From positions 1 to 35,456 of the forward strand of contig JAPOYE010000081.1 in the NCBI GenBank assembly GCA_026706695.1: a DNA stretch of 35,456 nt, in the 5' to 3' direction. The stretch's first letter is position 1. Every line of letters starts with the position of its first letter. The notes beneath the pieces were generated by a model, which saw nothing but the letters and a program-made list of their open reading frames with translations, was not told where the DNA came from and searched no databases. This document shows, one piece after another, positions 1-6,875 of the stretch. This stretch comes from Candidatus Dadabacteria bacterium. Lineage in GTDB: Bacteria; Desulfobacterota_D; UBA1144; Nemesobacterales; Nemesobacteraceae. The translations under genes and the position numbers were made by a program.

Positions 1-200
1 AATTGCGGCAAGTTTGCCCCAAAAACAGACGTAAATCGGTCTCTTCTCGCACTTTATCTGTTCTGTTCACCATGGAAGTGGTAAGATTCTTCAGGAAGCC
101 GCTTGAATCAATAATTTTGCAAGAGGCTCTATAGCATGTTCAACCCGAGTAACGCTGGAACCTTGTTTGCCATGATCTTGCTTCTTTCAAATGGCCGGGA

Positions 201-656
201 CTACGGTCTAGGTCTATCTTGCCATTCTGAACAAGCTGCCAACTGCACGGCGTGCTGTTTCTGTTCATCTCGCCTTTCCTTCCCAACTATATTTTCGTCT
301 ATATTCAGAAAGATGTCAGTATGGTAAGCATTATCGGCAGTCGGTGTAGCTTCAACTGTTCTTCCGTTGGTTGAAGCGGAGAGCACAGTGATTATAGCCC
401 AACCGTAAAATTTTTTGCTTGGGATCCTGTCTCTCGCCCGGTCTTCGGCTAATGAAGCCATTTCCGAAACAAGCGCTCTATCCATTCTGTCAACGGATAT
501 GGATTCCGCGTCGTGACTTTCCAAAAAAACATCCCTGGGAATTTGACCACTGCTCTGAGCCCTTTTCGACAATCTTCTGGAAAAGATGCTTCTGCCAAGC
601 CGCTCATTGTCAGTAAGGTCGGGAAGTCGGCACATTCTGATTCCCTTACGATTCAT
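201..656 (-). CDS. Conserved hypothetical protein, third gene of an accessory cassette
   Basis: A 151-residue soluble protein with no signal peptide or membrane segment. I do not recognise a named domain. The segment from about residue 20 (LGRSIFSRRLSKRAQ) through ISVDRMDRA (about 52-60), KKFYGWAII (about 81-89), NGRTVEATP (about 97-105) and NAYHTDIFL (about 108-116) has the look of a conserved family with aromatic and charged invariant blocks, and from memory such proteins occur as uncharacterised hypotheticals. The tail is rich in His, Gln and Arg and ends at RPRP. An internal Met at residue 8 (MCRLPDL) is a possible alternative start. The gene overlaps the stop of the preceding gene by 11 bp, so it is probably translated from the same mRNA as the two upstream genes. 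Its function is unknown. Confidence 0.7.
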   Translation of the reverse strand: MNRKGIRMCRLPDLTDNERLGRSIFSRRLSKRAQSSGQIPRDVFLESHDAESISVDRMDRALVSEMASLAEDRARDRIPSKKFYGWAIITVLSASTNGRTVEATPTADNAYHTDIFLNIDENIVGKERRDEQKQHAVQLAACSEWQDRPRP

Positions 657-1236
657 TCAATAATTGCAGCTGCTCTCTCACAAATCCGTCGGGAAGTTCA
701 GAGGAATCTTGGTATCGAGCACGCCGATTTTTCCCGTTTATGTAAGAGAAACAGGCTCCTTGCCCATTGTTGTCGAGTTCAATTGCAACTATTGAAGGTT
801 CTACAGGTGATTTAAACTGAATAACAATCTCTCCTTCTTCAGTTGGGTAGATAATGGGTGCCAGACTCTGGTTCTTCAATTTTTTAATAATTATCTTGGC
901 CTGTTGTTTAGTATTGGAACTGATTTCTGGCAATCTTTCTTCAGCTACTTCTGCGTCCAGTTCCTCCAACTGTTTTAACGCATCAGCATACCACTCTGCA
1001 TACGAATCTTGTGCAGATAGGTTTTGATTCTGCGGATATCCTGTCTCTCTAGTGACTGTAAATCCAGTCTTATATGGACTGCTGCCAAAAGAAACCTCTC
1101 GTTCTTGAGCAGGAATTTTTTGGAAACCGGACAGATTCTCTGTGTTTGCGTGAGAAAGAAGCCGGCCACTTATGCCGTATTGCAACTCCGGCAAAAGGTA
1201 GGTGGTATTTGTCCCCATATTTACGGTTTGGTTCAT
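646..1236 (-). CDS. Hypothetical protein, second gene of an accessory cassette
   Basis: A 196-residue soluble protein without recognisable catalytic motifs. The N-terminal 70 residues are polar and low in complexity and may be disordered. Residues about 80-130 form a charged helical stretch (YADALKQLEELDAEVAEER, followed by a Lys-rich helix). The C-terminal half has alternating beta-like segments (GEIVIQFKSP, SIVAIELDNNGQGACFSY) and ends in a hydrophilic helix. The start ATG overlaps the stop codon of the upstream gene by 4 bp (ATGA), and the stop overlaps the next gene by 11 bp. This is strong evidence for translational coupling in a three-gene operon. No function can be assigned. A protein-binding or immunity-type role would be only a guess. 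Confidence 0.7.
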   Translation of the reverse strand: MNQTVNMGTNTTYLLPELQYGISGRLLSHANTENLSGFQKIPAQEREVSFGSSPYKTGFTVTRETGYPQNQNLSAQDSYAEWYADALKQLEELDAEVAEERLPEISSNTKQQAKIIIKKLKNQSLAPIIYPTEEGEIVIQFKSPVEPSIVAIELDNNGQGACFSYINGKNRRARYQDSSELPDGFVREQLQLLNES

Positions 1237-1937
1237 TGATTGTCCCTGTATTCTATTCCCGTCGATTGGTCCGCAAGCCTATAGAGTTTTTCCAGCAGTT
1301 GTTTCTGACCGGAGAAATTCATGTTCTGTGCAGAAAACAAGTGTATCTGTGTGTTGATGAACAGGCCATCTTCGATTGCTTGCGATACTTCCAGCAATCG
1401 GCGAAGCGTCCAGGTGTTGTTTTTATCCGAGAGCGTCAGATGAAAAGATGGTTGGTACTTGGTTTCCTGTTCTGAATTCATAACATCGACAACTTTTTTA
1501 TGTGTGAACTGAGACAGGTAGTAATCAGCGGAGTGCCCGCTTACAACCTCCACATGCCTGTTGGATGTATGTGACAGCAGTACCTGTTCATGATTGCTGA
1601 AATCTGTTGAACACCATTCCATTGATCTACGGAGAACTTCATCAACAGTTGGAATGTCTTTTCTGGTTATTCGAGCAAAACTTAGCCGCAGGAAGTCTGG
1701 ACTCAAAACAATCCTGCACGCTCCAGCGAACAGCTGGCATGAACACTGGACCTCTCCTAAAGAATCGGATTTTGTCATCCTGAAGTCTGATGGTCGGATT
1801 CTCAGCCAATTGTCAAATTTATCAACTATTCCGGCGATAAATTTTGATTGCGCTACGGACCAATCCGTAATAAACGGACTTAAAGTCAAACTGACTTCAA
1901 TCTCTTCTTCATAAGGGTGTGTGCACAGAATGTTCAC
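1233..1937 (-). CDS. Hypothetical protein, first gene of an accessory cassette, possibly TIGR04255-like
   Basis: A 234-residue soluble protein starting at GTG with a good ribosome binding site (GGAGG at 1947-1951 on the minus strand, nine bases upstream). The general shape is beta-rich at the N-terminus (EIEVSLTLSPFITDW, CRIVLSPDFLRLSFA) with a helix around VDEVLRRSMEWC and further strand-like segments. That layout is reminiscent of the sporadically distributed TIGR04255 family, but I cannot confirm membership and no motif proves it. It leads the cassette, is preceded by a plausible promoter and overlaps the second gene by 4 bp. Position next to tRNA-Arg and the relatively AT-rich sequence compared with the backbone genes suggest acquired DNA. 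Function unknown. Confidence 0.65.
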   Translation of the reverse strand: MNILCTHPYEEEIEVSLTLSPFITDWSVAQSKFIAGIVDKFDNWLRIRPSDFRMTKSDSLGEVQCSCQLFAGACRIVLSPDFLRLSFARITRKDIPTVDEVLRRSMEWCSTDFSNHEQVLLSHTSNRHVEVVSGHSADYYLSQFTHKKVVDVMNSEQETKYQPSFHLTLSDKNNTWTLRRLLEVSQAIEDGLFINTQIHLFSAQNMNFSGQKQLLEKLYRLADQSTGIEYRDNQ

Positions 1938-1957
1938 GTATAACAGCCTCCGCTATA

Positions 1958-1985
1958 AATATAAATCTGATTTTCATACATGCAA
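1958..1985 (-). promoter_or_regulatory. Candidate sigma-70 promoter of the three-gene cassette
   Basis: Read on the minus strand, TTGCAT (1985-1980) is followed by a 16-base spacer and TATATT (1963-1958). Transcription would start just before the ribosome binding site at 1951-1947, giving a very short leader ahead of the GTG at 1937. The match is good but not perfect, and it rests on sequence alone. Confidence 0.4.
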
Positions 1986-2170
1986 GCAGCGGGAAGAATG
2001 CTTTGAAAAAGATCACTACAGGAAAAGCTGACGATGTCGAGGCGATAGACGGGATACTGAGAGAAACAAGGCGATTAGTTTGCAGAAATACAATTATGTA
2101 TTGGGAATTGGACTAAGAATTTTCTTTTCAGGCAACAGAATACTTGGGAATTAACCCTTTCTTTTCAGCG

Positions 2171-2244
2171 CGTCCCCGGCAGGATTCGAACCTGCGGCCT
2201 CAGGATTAGGAATCCTGCGCTCTATCCAACTGAGCTACGGGGAC
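2171..2244 (-). tRNA. tRNA-Arg (anticodon CCU)
   Basis: The minus strand from 2244 reads as a full cloverleaf. The acceptor stem GTCCCCG pairs with CGGGGAC, there is a D-arm GCTCAGTTGGATAGAGC, an anticodon arm CAGGA-TTCCTAA-TCCTG with anticodon CCT, and a T-arm containing GGTTCGAATCC. The discriminator base is G at 2171. The CCA tail is not encoded (the next bases read CGC), so CCA must be added enzymatically. It decodes AGG, an abundant arginine codon in the surrounding backbone genes. Its 3' side faces the accessory cassette at 201-1937. Confidence 0.95.
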
Positions 2245-3320: not shown

Positions 3321-3980
3321 ATGCTTTCGCAATCAATAGAGGATTACCTTAAGGCCATTTACGAGATTGAGACTTCCGAGGGGAAGGTTTCGACCAGCGC
3401 ACTTTCGGAAAAACTGGGCGTGTCTCCGGCTTCGGTTACGAGCATGATGAAAAAGCTCTCGGAGAAAAAGCTTATAACCCACAAGCGCTACCAAGGGGTG
3501 AAGCTTACTCCCGCTGGCAGGAAAATAGCTCTTGAGATAATCAGACATCACCGGCTTATCGAGCTTTACCTGAAGGAGGCGCTAGGCGTTCCTTGGGACC
3601 AGGTGCACCAGGAAGCCGAGAAATGGGAACACGTGCTCTCAGAGGATCTTGAAGACAGGATCGACAAGTTTCTCGGTTATCCGGTCACCGACCCGCACGG
3701 CTCACCGATCCCGCGCCGAGACGGCACCATGATCGTGAGGGAGTGCGACGCTCTTGTGGATGTGGAGCCTGACACCTTGGTGAGAGTGGTTGAAGTGAGC
3801 GATCATGACCCGGAACTGCTTCGTTACTTGGGCGGGATAGGGCTTTACCCCGAAACCGAGATGACGGTTGTTTCGAAGCAGCCTTTTAAGGGTCCCATAA
3901 TCGTCGAGCTGACCGGGAAGGAATATCCCATAGGGCGAAACGCTGCCAAGTACATACTGGTTGAGAAAGCGAACAACTGA
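3321..3980 (+). CDS. DtxR-family metal-dependent transcriptional repressor (MntR/TroR-like)
   Basis: A 219-residue regulator with an N-terminal winged helix (about 1-65, recognition region VSPASVTSMMKKLSEKKL), a metal-binding dimerisation domain (about 66-140) and a C-terminal FeoA/SH3-like domain (about 145-215). By reading against DtxR and MntR, likely metal ligands are D8, H77, E100, E103 and H104, with H77, E81 and H96 matching the DtxR ancillary site. Asp at position 8 and an acidic residue in place of the DtxR cysteine are features of manganese-sensing members, so Mn2+ is the favoured co-repressor, although Fe2+ cannot be excluded. It is first in an operon with an ABC metal importer, 11 bases upstream of the binding-protein gene, and sits behind a promoter with a palindromic operator. 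Confidence 0.9.
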   Translation: MLSQSIEDYLKAIYEIETSEGKVSTSALSEKLGVSPASVTSMMKKLSEKKLITHKRYQGVKLTPAGRKIALEIIRHHRLIELYLKEALGVPWDQVHQEAEKWEHVLSEDLEDRIDKFLGYPVTDPHGSPIPRRDGTMIVRECDALVDVEPDTLVRVVEVSDHDPELLRYLGGIGLYPETEMTVVSKQPFKGPIIVELTGKEYPIGRNAAKYILVEKANN

Positions 3981-3991
3981 GAGAGGAAAAA

Positions 3992-4975
3992 ATGAAAATG
4001 ATAGCGGGCATAAGGTTTTTTATGCTTTCTGCGTTGCTGGTGCTCTGTGTGGCCTGCGCTGAAAGCAGCGGAAGCGTAAAAAGAGAAGGCACGATAAAAG
4101 TGGTTACGACCACCGCTATGATCGGGGATCTGGTCAAGAACGTCGCCGGGGAAAAAGCGGAGGTCATCTCCCTCATGGGAACCGGGGTTGACCCGCATCT
4201 TTACAAAGCGAGCGCCGGGGACGTGGAAAAGCTTGCCGGAGCCGACATGATTTTTTATAACGGTCTTCACCTCGAGGGAAAGATTACGGATGTTCTTGCG
4301 CAGATGAAAAAAAGCGGGATATTCACCGTAGGGGTTGCGGAGGGAATCGACAAGTCCCTGCTTCTTTCTCCCGAGGAATACGAAGGATACTACGATCCGC
4401 ATATCTGGTTTGACGTCGCTCTGTGGAAAAAAGCGGCCAAGGTGGTCAAGGAGGCTTTCTCACTCTACGATCCGGAAAACGCCGTTATCTACAAGCAGAA
4501 CGCCGAATCCTATCTCAAAGAACTGAATCTTCTGCAGTCTTACATACAGAAGAAGGTAGCCTTGTTGCGCCACGAAAGAAAAGTCCTTATAACGGCCCAC
4601 GATGCATTTAATTATTTCGGAAGAGGTTACGGATTTGAGGTAATGGGGCTTCAGGGAATAAGTACCGATTCTGAAGCGAGCGTTGCGGATATACAAAATC
4701 TCTCAAGGGTAATTGCCGAGCGAAAAATTCCGGCAGTTTTCGTTGAAACCTCCATCTCTCCCAGATACATGCGTGCCCTTCGGGCCTCGGTCAAGGCAAG
4801 AGGTTTTGATGTCCGGATAGGCGGCAGTCTTTACTCGGACTCGATGGGCAGCCCGGGAACAGAAGAGGGTAGCTACATAGGGATGTTCAGAAGCAACGTG
4901 GATACTATCGTGGAATCGCTCAGTCGCAGTATCGAGGTTGCCGATTCCAAAGCCGAAGCCGCCGGAGATGGGTAA
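3992..4975 (+). CDS. troA: Metal ABC transporter substrate-binding lipoprotein (TroA/ZnuA family)
   Basis: A 327-residue cluster A-I solute-binding protein. A signal peptide ends in a lipobox-like CVAC with C22 as probable lipid anchor. Metal ligands fit the TroA set: H69 in DPHLY, H137 in DPHIWFD, H203 in TAHDAF and D283 in LYSDSMG. The His-rich loop typical of dedicated zinc proteins between the first two ligands is absent or very short, which favours Mn2+ or a mixed Mn/Zn specificity. It captures the metal at the outer face of the inner membrane and hands it to the two permeases. The stop codon overlaps the start of the ATPase gene by one base. The final 20 residues are Ala/Glu-rich and probably flexible. 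Confidence 0.92.
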   Translation: MKMIAGIRFFMLSALLVLCVACAESSGSVKREGTIKVVTTTAMIGDLVKNVAGEKAEVISLMGTGVDPHLYKASAGDVEKLAGADMIFYNGLHLEGKITDVLAQMKKSGIFTVGVAEGIDKSLLLSPEEYEGYYDPHIWFDVALWKKAAKVVKEAFSLYDPENAVIYKQNAESYLKELNLLQSYIQKKVALLRHERKVLITAHDAFNYFGRGYGFEVMGLQGISTDSEASVADIQNLSRVIAERKIPAVFVETSISPRYMRALRASVKARGFDVRIGGSLYSDSMGSPGTEEGSYIGMFRSNVDTIVESLSRSIEVADSKAEAAGDG

Positions 4976-5751
4976 TGAGCAGCGGAGAGGAGAATCCGGC
5001 CGTTCCGGCAGTCCGTGTGACGGACCTTACCGTCGCTTACGGCGACAAGACCGTTCTCTGGGATATAGACCTTGAGATTCCAAGCGGGTCGATAGTCGCC
5101 GTTGTGGGACCGAACGGCGCCGGCAAGACAACCCTGATAAAATCTATCCAAGGACTTGTTCCGCGCGTTGCGGGAGTCGTCTCCATCCACGGTAAACCTT
5201 ACGAAAAACAGAGAAAGGAAGTGAGTTACGTTCCCCAGAGAGGTTCTGTAGACTGGGATTTTCCCACTTCCGTAGTGGATACGGTGAAAATGGGCAGTTA
5301 CGGAGACCTGGGATGGATAAGACGTCCCGGAAGAAAGGAGCATGAAAAGGCGCTCAGCGCCCTTGAGAAAGTCGATATGCTTGAGTTTGCCCAGAGGCAG
5401 ATAAGCCAGCTCTCCGGAGGGCAGCAGCAGAGAGTTTTCCTCGCAAGAGCCCTTGTTCAGAGCGCATCGGTTTACCTTCTGGATGAGCCTTTCCAAGGGG
5501 TTGATGCTACGACCGAGAAAGCGATAGTCAGGATACTGAAGGAACTTGCCGCCGGGGGAAAAACTGTGCTTGCGGTTCATCACGATCTTAACACCGTTTC
5601 CGAGTACTACCAGCGGATCGCCATTCTGAATGTGGGACTTGTGGCCTCGGGGAGGGTGGATGAGGTCTTTAATTCTGAGAATCTCATGAAGGCTTACGGA
5701 GGCAAGACCTCCTTTTTCCCCGAAAGAAAATCGGCCAAAAGGGCAGTGTGA
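4975..5751 (+). CDS. troB: Metal ABC transporter ATP-binding protein
   Basis: A 258-residue cytoplasmic ATPase that powers the Mn/Zn importer. Walker A GPNGAGKTT is at residues 45-53, the Q-loop lies in YVPQRGSVDWDFP at about 85-97, the ABC signature LSGGQQQR is at about 145-152, Walker B VYLLDEPFQG follows, and the switch histidine is in VHHDLNTV. The WDFP segment after the Q-loop is common in manganese and zinc importer ATPases. Length is normal for the family. The start ATG overlaps the stop of the binding-protein gene and the stop overlaps the start of the first permease (TGATG), so the four transport genes are translationally coupled. Confidence 0.93.
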   Translation: MSSGEENPAVPAVRVTDLTVAYGDKTVLWDIDLEIPSGSIVAVVGPNGAGKTTLIKSIQGLVPRVAGVVSIHGKPYEKQRKEVSYVPQRGSVDWDFPTSVVDTVKMGSYGDLGWIRRPGRKEHEKALSALEKVDMLEFAQRQISQLSGGQQQRVFLARALVQSASVYLLDEPFQGVDATTEKAIVRILKELAAGGKTVLAVHHDLNTVSEYYQRIAILNVGLVASGRVDEVFNSENLMKAYGGKTSFFPERKSAKRAV

Positions 5752-6875
5752 TGCTTGAATTTGCGGTTGAGCTTTTCTCTGACTATACGGCCAGGACCAT
5801 TCTCTTGGGAGCGGCTTCCCTTGGGGTTGTAAGCGGCGTGGTCGGCTCTTACGCGGTGCTTAGAAAGCAAAGCCTCGTGGGCGACGTCATGTCGCACGCG
5901 GCCCTTCCCGGAATAGTGCTTGCCTTCCTCATAATGGGAGTCAAGGAACAGCTGCCGATCTTTATCGGGGCCGCGCTCTCCGCCGTCCTGGCGGTTTTTC
6001 TGATCAACCTAGTTACGAGCAACTCGAGGATAAAAACCGACAGCGCTATGGGGATGGCGCTTTCTGTCTTTTTCGGGCTTGGCCTTGTTCTTCTTACCTA
6101 CGCGCAGAAAATGCCGGACGCCAACCAGGCGGGGCTTGATAAGTTTCTTTTCGGTCAGGCGGAGGCGCTTGTCGAAAAAGACGTCCTTGTTATAGGTGTT
6201 ACGGGGCTTTTCGCCCTTTTGGTTGTGGGACTTTTCTGGAAAGAGTTCAAACTTCTTTGCTTCGATCCGGATTTCGGGGGAACTATGAGCTTTTCCATTA
6301 AGTCTCTGGACCTGCTCGTTACGGCCGTCATAGTTTCGGCAATAGTAATCGGGCTGCAGACAGTAGGGGTCGTGCTTATGAGCTCAATGCTCATTGCCCC
6401 CGCGGTTGCGGCCAGACAGTGGACCGGCGGTATGGGCTCGATGGTGATTCTTGCGGCCTCAATAGCGGCCGTCTCCGGCGTAACCGGTGTTGCGCTAAGT
6501 GCCGGGCTTGAGAACGTGCCGACGGGACCGGCGGTTATAGTCTGCGTGAGCGTCATCGCTTTTTTTTCGGTTCTTTTCTCGCCGAACGGATTTTTCACCC
6601 TGAGATTCAAAGACGCCAGGAGCAGAAGGGAGATAAGGAAGGATTACGTCTTAAAAGCCCTGCACGATCTGGCTCTTGAGCATAACGACCCCGGCTACGC
6701 GCATTCCGAGAAGCTGCTTGCGCTTGGAAGCGAGAAGGGGTTTAACGTGAGAAAAAGTCTTTTGCATCTGCAGGCGGCGGGGCACGTGGAGAGAGCGGGC
6801 GAAGAGAACTGGCGGCTCACCCCAAGCGGTATTCGCGAGACCAGGAGGCTTTCACCGGTGGGGAATAACGGATGA
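5751..6875 (+). CDS. troC: Metal ABC transporter permease with C-terminal winged-helix-like extension
   Basis: A 374-residue ABC-3 family permease. About eight hydrophobic segments cover residues 10-285, including the conserved SYAVLRKQSLVGDVMSHAAL region that contacts the ATPase and the GVVLMSSMLIAPAVAARQW segment. The ATG at 5751 is preferred because it overlaps the ATPase stop as TGATG; a GTG three bases earlier is in the same frame. After the last membrane helix there is an 80-90-residue cytoplasmic tail (from about RSRREIRKDYVLKALHDLAL) with helices and a final HVERAGEENWRLTPSGIRE stretch typical of a winged helix. Family members usually end near 285-300 residues, so this is an extension. 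The architecture resembles the chlamydial YtgCR permease-repressor fusion, though sensing or DNA binding here is inference. Confidence 0.9.
   Translation: MLEFAVELFSDYTARTILLGAASLGVVSGVVGSYAVLRKQSLVGDVMSHAALPGIVLAFLIMGVKEQLPIFIGAALSAVLAVFLINLVTSNSRIKTDSAMGMALSVFFGLGLVLLTYAQKMPDANQAGLDKFLFGQAEALVEKDVLVIGVTGLFALLVVGLFWKEFKLLCFDPDFGGTMSFSIKSLDLLVTAVIVSAIVIGLQTVGVVLMSSMLIAPAVAARQWTGGMGSMVILAASIAAVSGVTGVALSAGLENVPTGPAVIVCVSVIAFFSVLFSPNGFFTLRFKDARSRREIRKDYVLKALHDLALEHNDPGYAHSEKLLALGSEKGFNVRKSLLHLQAAGHVERAGEENWRLTPSGIRETRRLSPVGNNG

Follow-up and report, generated by a model that had tools for sequence, protein, structure and literature searches.

Related systems

The closest described system to the cassette analyzed here is PDC-M32 (PADLOC-DB v2), which consists of M32A and M32B and is, to our knowledge, a phage defense candidate (PDC) without experimental validation. 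PDCs were put forward on the basis of "guilt-by-embedding", and most of them lack validation (PMC10855318, PMC12988326); a Sinorhizobium prophage is reported to carry PDC-M32 (PMC12429752). Two other groups are comparable: operons led by a protein of the NCBIfam family TIGR04255, a family of unknown function that is named in no paper of the literature we searched, and HEPN/MNT and PIN (VapBC-type) toxin-antitoxin modules, which are small operons like ours.

We analyzed the 35,456-bp contig C81 (hereafter the window) of a 1.87-Mb draft genome of a Candidatus Dadabacteria bacterium (GCA_026706695.1) and compared it with 13 congeners. In the three-gene cassette near its left end, the C-terminal domain of gene 2 corresponds to M32A and gene 3 probably to M32B, in the same order. 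The cassette differs from PDC-M32 in that the place of its separate gene 1 is taken in the long M32A by an N-terminal stretch of ~245 aa, and in that window gene 3 reaches M32B only via intermediate sequences. TIGR04255 operons, one of which is found in the same genome (contig C90), have the same three-gene architecture and overlaps as the window cassette, a clearly homologous gene 3 and a homologous gene 2 C-terminal domain, but no sequence similarity could be detected between window gene 1 and TIGR04255. In sister TIGR04255 operons, a PIN or HEPN-like protein can stand third, whereas window gene 3 matches neither family.

Organization of the cassette

All three genes lie on the minus strand. 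Gene 1 (1937-1233) starts with GTG and encodes a first-slot protein of 234 aa, which we assign to subfamily 1a. Gene 2 (1236-646) encodes 196 aa with a variable N-terminal half and a conserved C-terminal domain, and gene 3 (656-201) encodes 151 aa, a remote relative of PDC-M32B and a probable effector. A preliminary description of the locus had reported a run of three open reading frames with overlaps of 4 and 11 bp, and the coordinates bear this out, with genes 1 and 2 sharing 4 bp (1233-1236) and genes 2 and 3 sharing 11 bp (646-656). The good ribosome site that it reported is the GGAGG read from the sequence at 1951-1947 (minus strand), 9 nt 5′ of the gene 1 GTG. The cassette does lie 3′ of a tRNA gene, tRNA-Arg(CCT) (2170-2244, minus strand), on the same strand. 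Its own promoter was not recovered: there were 2 sigma-70-like sites versus 2.6 expected by chance, and none was upstream of gene 1. The cassette may be co-transcribed with tRNA-Arg.

Searches of Pfam, NCBIfam and PHROGs with all three proteins returned nothing significant, and none of them reached the cut-off of a Pfam or NCBIfam family; none of the three is a housekeeping protein. Gene 2 and its copy in the congener G010 differ with a dN of 0.34 and a dS of 3.0 (third-position differences 103/221), which indicates that gene 2 is under purifying selection. Because of these values, and because the gene order recurs in other genomes, the three open reading frames are, by comparative criteria, real genes.

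Insertion at tRNA-Arg

In 12 congeners, all of those with sequence on that side, a glycosyltransferase gene lies against tRNA-Arg, at a distance of ~10 bp in most and ~100 bp in G004. The congener flanks at tRNA-Arg can be aligned to one another, and window 1-2167 is absent from the site. The order glycosyltransferase, tRNA-Arg, glutaminyl cyclase is kept in the congeners, while ~2.1 kb intervenes in the window genome. The right junction of the insert falls at 2167..2168, with homology to the congeners running from 2168 in most comparisons (2159-2171 overall) and ending 2 bp past tRNA-Arg, so that the 3′ end of the tRNA gene is the insertion point. Since the site is empty in 12 congeners and holds a ~2.1-kb insert here, alignment indicates that the cassette is acquired, at this site in the window genome alone, in agreement with the earlier proposal of an acquired module.

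The preliminary description missed the end of a multicopy insertion sequence (IS) at window 1-129 (minus strand), which includes the start of a transposase-like open reading frame and an inverted repeat at ~113-129. Copies of window 1-129 terminate several contigs of the genome. The matching glycosyltransferase of the window genome lies terminally on contig C83; beyond it come 85 bases without a match, then TATA, then the IS end of window 113-129 as an inverted copy. The same TATA occurs at window 130..133 and is a putative target-site duplication. The simplest reading of these sequences is the order C83-[IS]-C81, in which the ~2.1-kb insert would consist of this cassette essentially alone, with the IS at its far side. 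Contig C61 carries the same IS end and TATA too, and the C83-C81 join is therefore drawn from synteny in the relatives together with the IS ends and not from the duplication alone. The IS was inserted next to the cassette at a later time, and the contig breaks there. No integrase was found among the window open reading frames, although the assembly does not cover the inside of the IS copy, and the 3′ end of the tRNA gene was not repeated directly in the C83 tail.

Recurrence of the module in other genomes

The module recurs at unrelated sites, and its patchy distribution and decayed copies are typical of conflict modules. The same three-gene order was found on contig C77 of the window genome (L014 2345-4405), where the first gene belongs to a second family, 1b, and gene 3 contains a stop, and in the congener G006; a decayed three-gene copy lies beside clpP/clpX in G010. 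A Dam-type DNA methyltransferase-like open reading frame and a restriction-enzyme-like one, both read from the sequence, adjoin this decayed copy (L013 3647-5857). The window genome also holds a TIGR04255-led module on C90 (L042 4010-5656), a module of a third type on C27 (L062 291-2262) and a decayed gene 3 fragment on C88 (L044 4883-5047).

A scan across 84,980 species genomes identified gene 3 relatives in Latescibacterota, Nitrospirales and Arenicellales, plus L036, a contig filed as Poribacteria (VXXH01000007.1). The three module proteins of L036 were identical to those of G006, and it is probably a mis-binned contig. Nitrospirales and Arenicellales have all three genes with a first gene of family 1b, while the two Latescibacterota loci (L032, L033) have genes 2 and 3 without gene 1. 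Genes 2 and 3 are also present on viral contig L046, whose neighboring open reading frames we read as putative portal, prohead protease, capsid and terminase genes; a PDB search with the putative capsid gave no match. Scans of viral contigs with window gene 3 alone, with TIGR04255-linked gene 3 and with gene 1a found nothing. Genes 2 and 3 were linked in other phyla, in cyanobacterial plasmid DNA and on viral contigs. Far from being scattered and unlinked, their homologues stay together across phyla, which supports the functional coupling first proposed from the tight gene arrangement.

Relationship to PDC-M32 and TIGR04255 operons

The PADLOC models for PDC-M32A (PDLC04575/04576) matched gene 2 over residues 81-177, aligned to positions 260-358 of 375 (E 9e-6), without the N-terminal part of the model. 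This match lies within the conserved C-terminal domain, at approximately residues 81-180. When the profiles of this domain were compared, the window family matched the TIGR04255-linked set at 89.3%, the latter matched PDC-M32A at 51.0%, and the window family matched PDC-M32A directly at 30.7%.

Gene 3 profiles detected the third gene of TIGR04255-led operons (E 8e-12) on C90 of the window genome and in relatives of this genome. TIGR04255-led operons with a gene 3 relative were also present in three more distant genomes, and such operons were also found on viral contigs. In profile-profile comparison, the window gene 3 family matched the TIGR04255-linked set at 98.3% (E 1.3e-14), and the TIGR04255-linked set matched PDC-M32B at 90.9% (E 1.1e-6). 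When the window gene 3 family was compared directly with three PDC-M32B sequences, the result was a non-significant 1.1%, and a PADLOC search (models such as PDLC04579) gave no direct match for window gene 3; the link between the two is indirect because it runs through the TIGR04255-linked set. As controls, 16/16 gene-3/gene-2 pairs scored <1%. The module on C27, a TIGR04255 gene with two further genes, is similar by motif and was not joined by profile. Taken as sequence relationships, these results support well the view that the cassette is a divergent relative of PDC-M32.

Well-defined conserved blocks had been noted in the third protein from its sequence alone, and they were evident in the alignment: S54, R57, H112 and I115 were invariant in 16/16 homologues, and L20, R22, F44, G85, A136 and L139 were near-invariant in the same 16 sequences. 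We recognized no catalytic signature in gene 3, which matched neither PIN nor HEPN in a Pfam search. AlphaFold2 models of gene 3 (7 sequences) had a mean pLDDT of 43.6, too poor for a fold search, and PDB sequence searches with the gene 1b, gene 2, gene 3 and TIGR04255 profiles gave nothing credible.

The exchangeable first slot

Gene 1 belongs to no Pfam, NCBIfam or PADLOC family, and among the sequences found its relatives were limited to G006 (the same proteins as in L036) and the decayed copy in G010. A match of the G006 gene 1 to HpaP (E 6e-4) was below the cut-off and was judged to be due to chance. Comparison of gene 1 with TIGR04255 gave no match at E up to 10 and an hhalign value of 0.1%. 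Family 1b heads the triplets of C77, Nitrospirales, Arenicellales and Picosynechococcus, a TIGR04255 protein heads the remaining operons, and no homology between 1a, 1b and TIGR04255 was detected by sequence. In genome G136 the long M32A carries its N-terminal part of ~245 aa in place of a separate gene 1. Gene 1 is a variable slot: its occupant comes from one of at least three families that do not resemble one another in sequence, or is an N-terminal extension of M32A.

AlphaFold2 models of gene 1 (2 sequences) had a mean pLDDT of 38.5, too poor for a fold search; the order of strands and helices in this poor model was like that expected of TIGR04255, which is at most a hint. A tblastn search of plasmids with gene 1b found 20 cyanobacterial plasmids, while the same search with the window's own three proteins found none. 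In cyanobacterial plasmids, family 1b also occurs without genes 2 and 3, upstream of very large proteins, which in L016, L019 and L020 are annotated as cytotoxin, Ig-domain protein and S8 peptidase.

Defense context

In G136, hsdM and hsdS flank the PDC-M32 pair, and a TIR-like gene (Cap12-like, E 6e-5) and hsdR come next. The Picosynechococcus triplet is flanked by hsdR and hsdS, and HepT/nucleotidyltransferase and VapC genes follow. No restriction genes were present in the stretches read around the window, G006, Nitrospirales and Arenicellales copies. No defense gene was visible adjacent to the window cassette, where the contig ends in the IS and the inferred neighbor is the glycosyltransferase. 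Among other TIGR04255 operons in the phylum, the third gene can encode a PIN protein (PF01850, E 3e-7) or a HEPN-like protein (E 0.0016, below the cut-off). These operons share TIGR04255 alone with the group described here, and not gene 2 or gene 3.

Proposed function of the module

The reading that we prefer, and to which we give an even chance of being right, is that the cassette is a conflict module of three genes, compact and mobile, and a distant relative of PDC-M32, with a core of genes 2 and 3 and an exchangeable gene 1. The preliminary description had suggested a defense or toxin-antitoxin-type module. The remote relationship of genes 2 and 3 to the candidate PDC-M32 favors this suggestion, and defense or toxicity itself is inferred. 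In such a module the constant core would be formed by gene 2, with its PDC-M32A-like C-terminal domain, and the PDC-M32B-like gene 3. Gene 3 would be a small effector whose complex with gene 2 either keeps it inactive or is needed for it to act. Gene 1 would serve as the exchangeable sensor or input through which a cue, for example phage infection, leads to release. We assign effector to the third slot and input to the first because of the defense contexts and the PIN and HEPN-like third genes; for gene 3 itself, a probable effector, the assignment is made from position and association. Complex formation, sensing by gene 1 and protection against phage are proposed as well.

If gene 3 were simply a toxin and gene 2, with or without gene 1, its antitoxin, the module would kill cells that lose it and would have no anti-phage role. 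The compact overlapping genes, the occurrence of genes 2 and 3 alone in Latescibacterota and on the viral contig, and the sister operons whose third gene encodes a PIN or HEPN-like protein would all fit plain addiction. However, loss is evidently tolerated, as seen from the decayed copy in G010, the gene 3 stop in C77 and the C88 fragment. Addiction would not need as many as three genes, the first of them large and exchangeable, and the location among type I restriction genes speaks for defense; we regard plain addiction as rather unlikely. That same location, shared by PDC-M32 and the Picosynechococcus triplet, together with the 1b genes that precede very large proteins without genes 2 and 3, would suit an accessory of three proteins that acts through restriction or surface systems, regulating or assisting them, and not by itself. 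Against such an accessory, which seems quite improbable, stand the copies of the window, G006, Nitrospirales and Arenicellales, around which the stretches read contained no restriction genes. Finally, the cassette could be cargo of a mobile element, metabolic or selfish, with no role in immunity. The tRNA insertion site and adjoining IS would be expected of cargo, and no enzymatic or toxin family was recognized, but the homology to PDC-M32A/B and the purifying selection on gene 2 make cargo without an immune role very unlikely.

Beyond the conflict-module reading, we tentatively consider, as a possibility somewhat on the doubtful side, that the window cassette, the TIGR04255 operons, the 1b triplets and PDC-M32 form one modular immune superfamily, with the gene 2 domain as constant connector, gene 3 as constant effector, exchangeable first-slot sensors, and PIN or HEPN nucleases replacing the effector in TIGR04255 operons. 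Gene 3 would then, if this is true, be a new class of effector with conserved R, S, R and H residues. The superfamily would join a family of unknown function, a candidate system and unannotated triplets in one modular architecture, and one small cassette would make the function of all three groups testable, gene 3 being the first to assay.

Additional loci

At L117 1-8006, the hsd genes of a type I restriction operon enclose both a PDC-M32 pair and a TIR-like (Cap12-like) gene. TIGR04255 operons with a PIN, HEPN-like or DUF7689 third gene are located at L059 393-2184, L047 536-2226 and L048 647-2256. In the window, positions 3321-6875 encode a DtxR-type regulator, a metal-binding lipoprotein, an ABC ATPase and a permease, which we read from the sequence as an ordinary Mn/Zn uptake operon.
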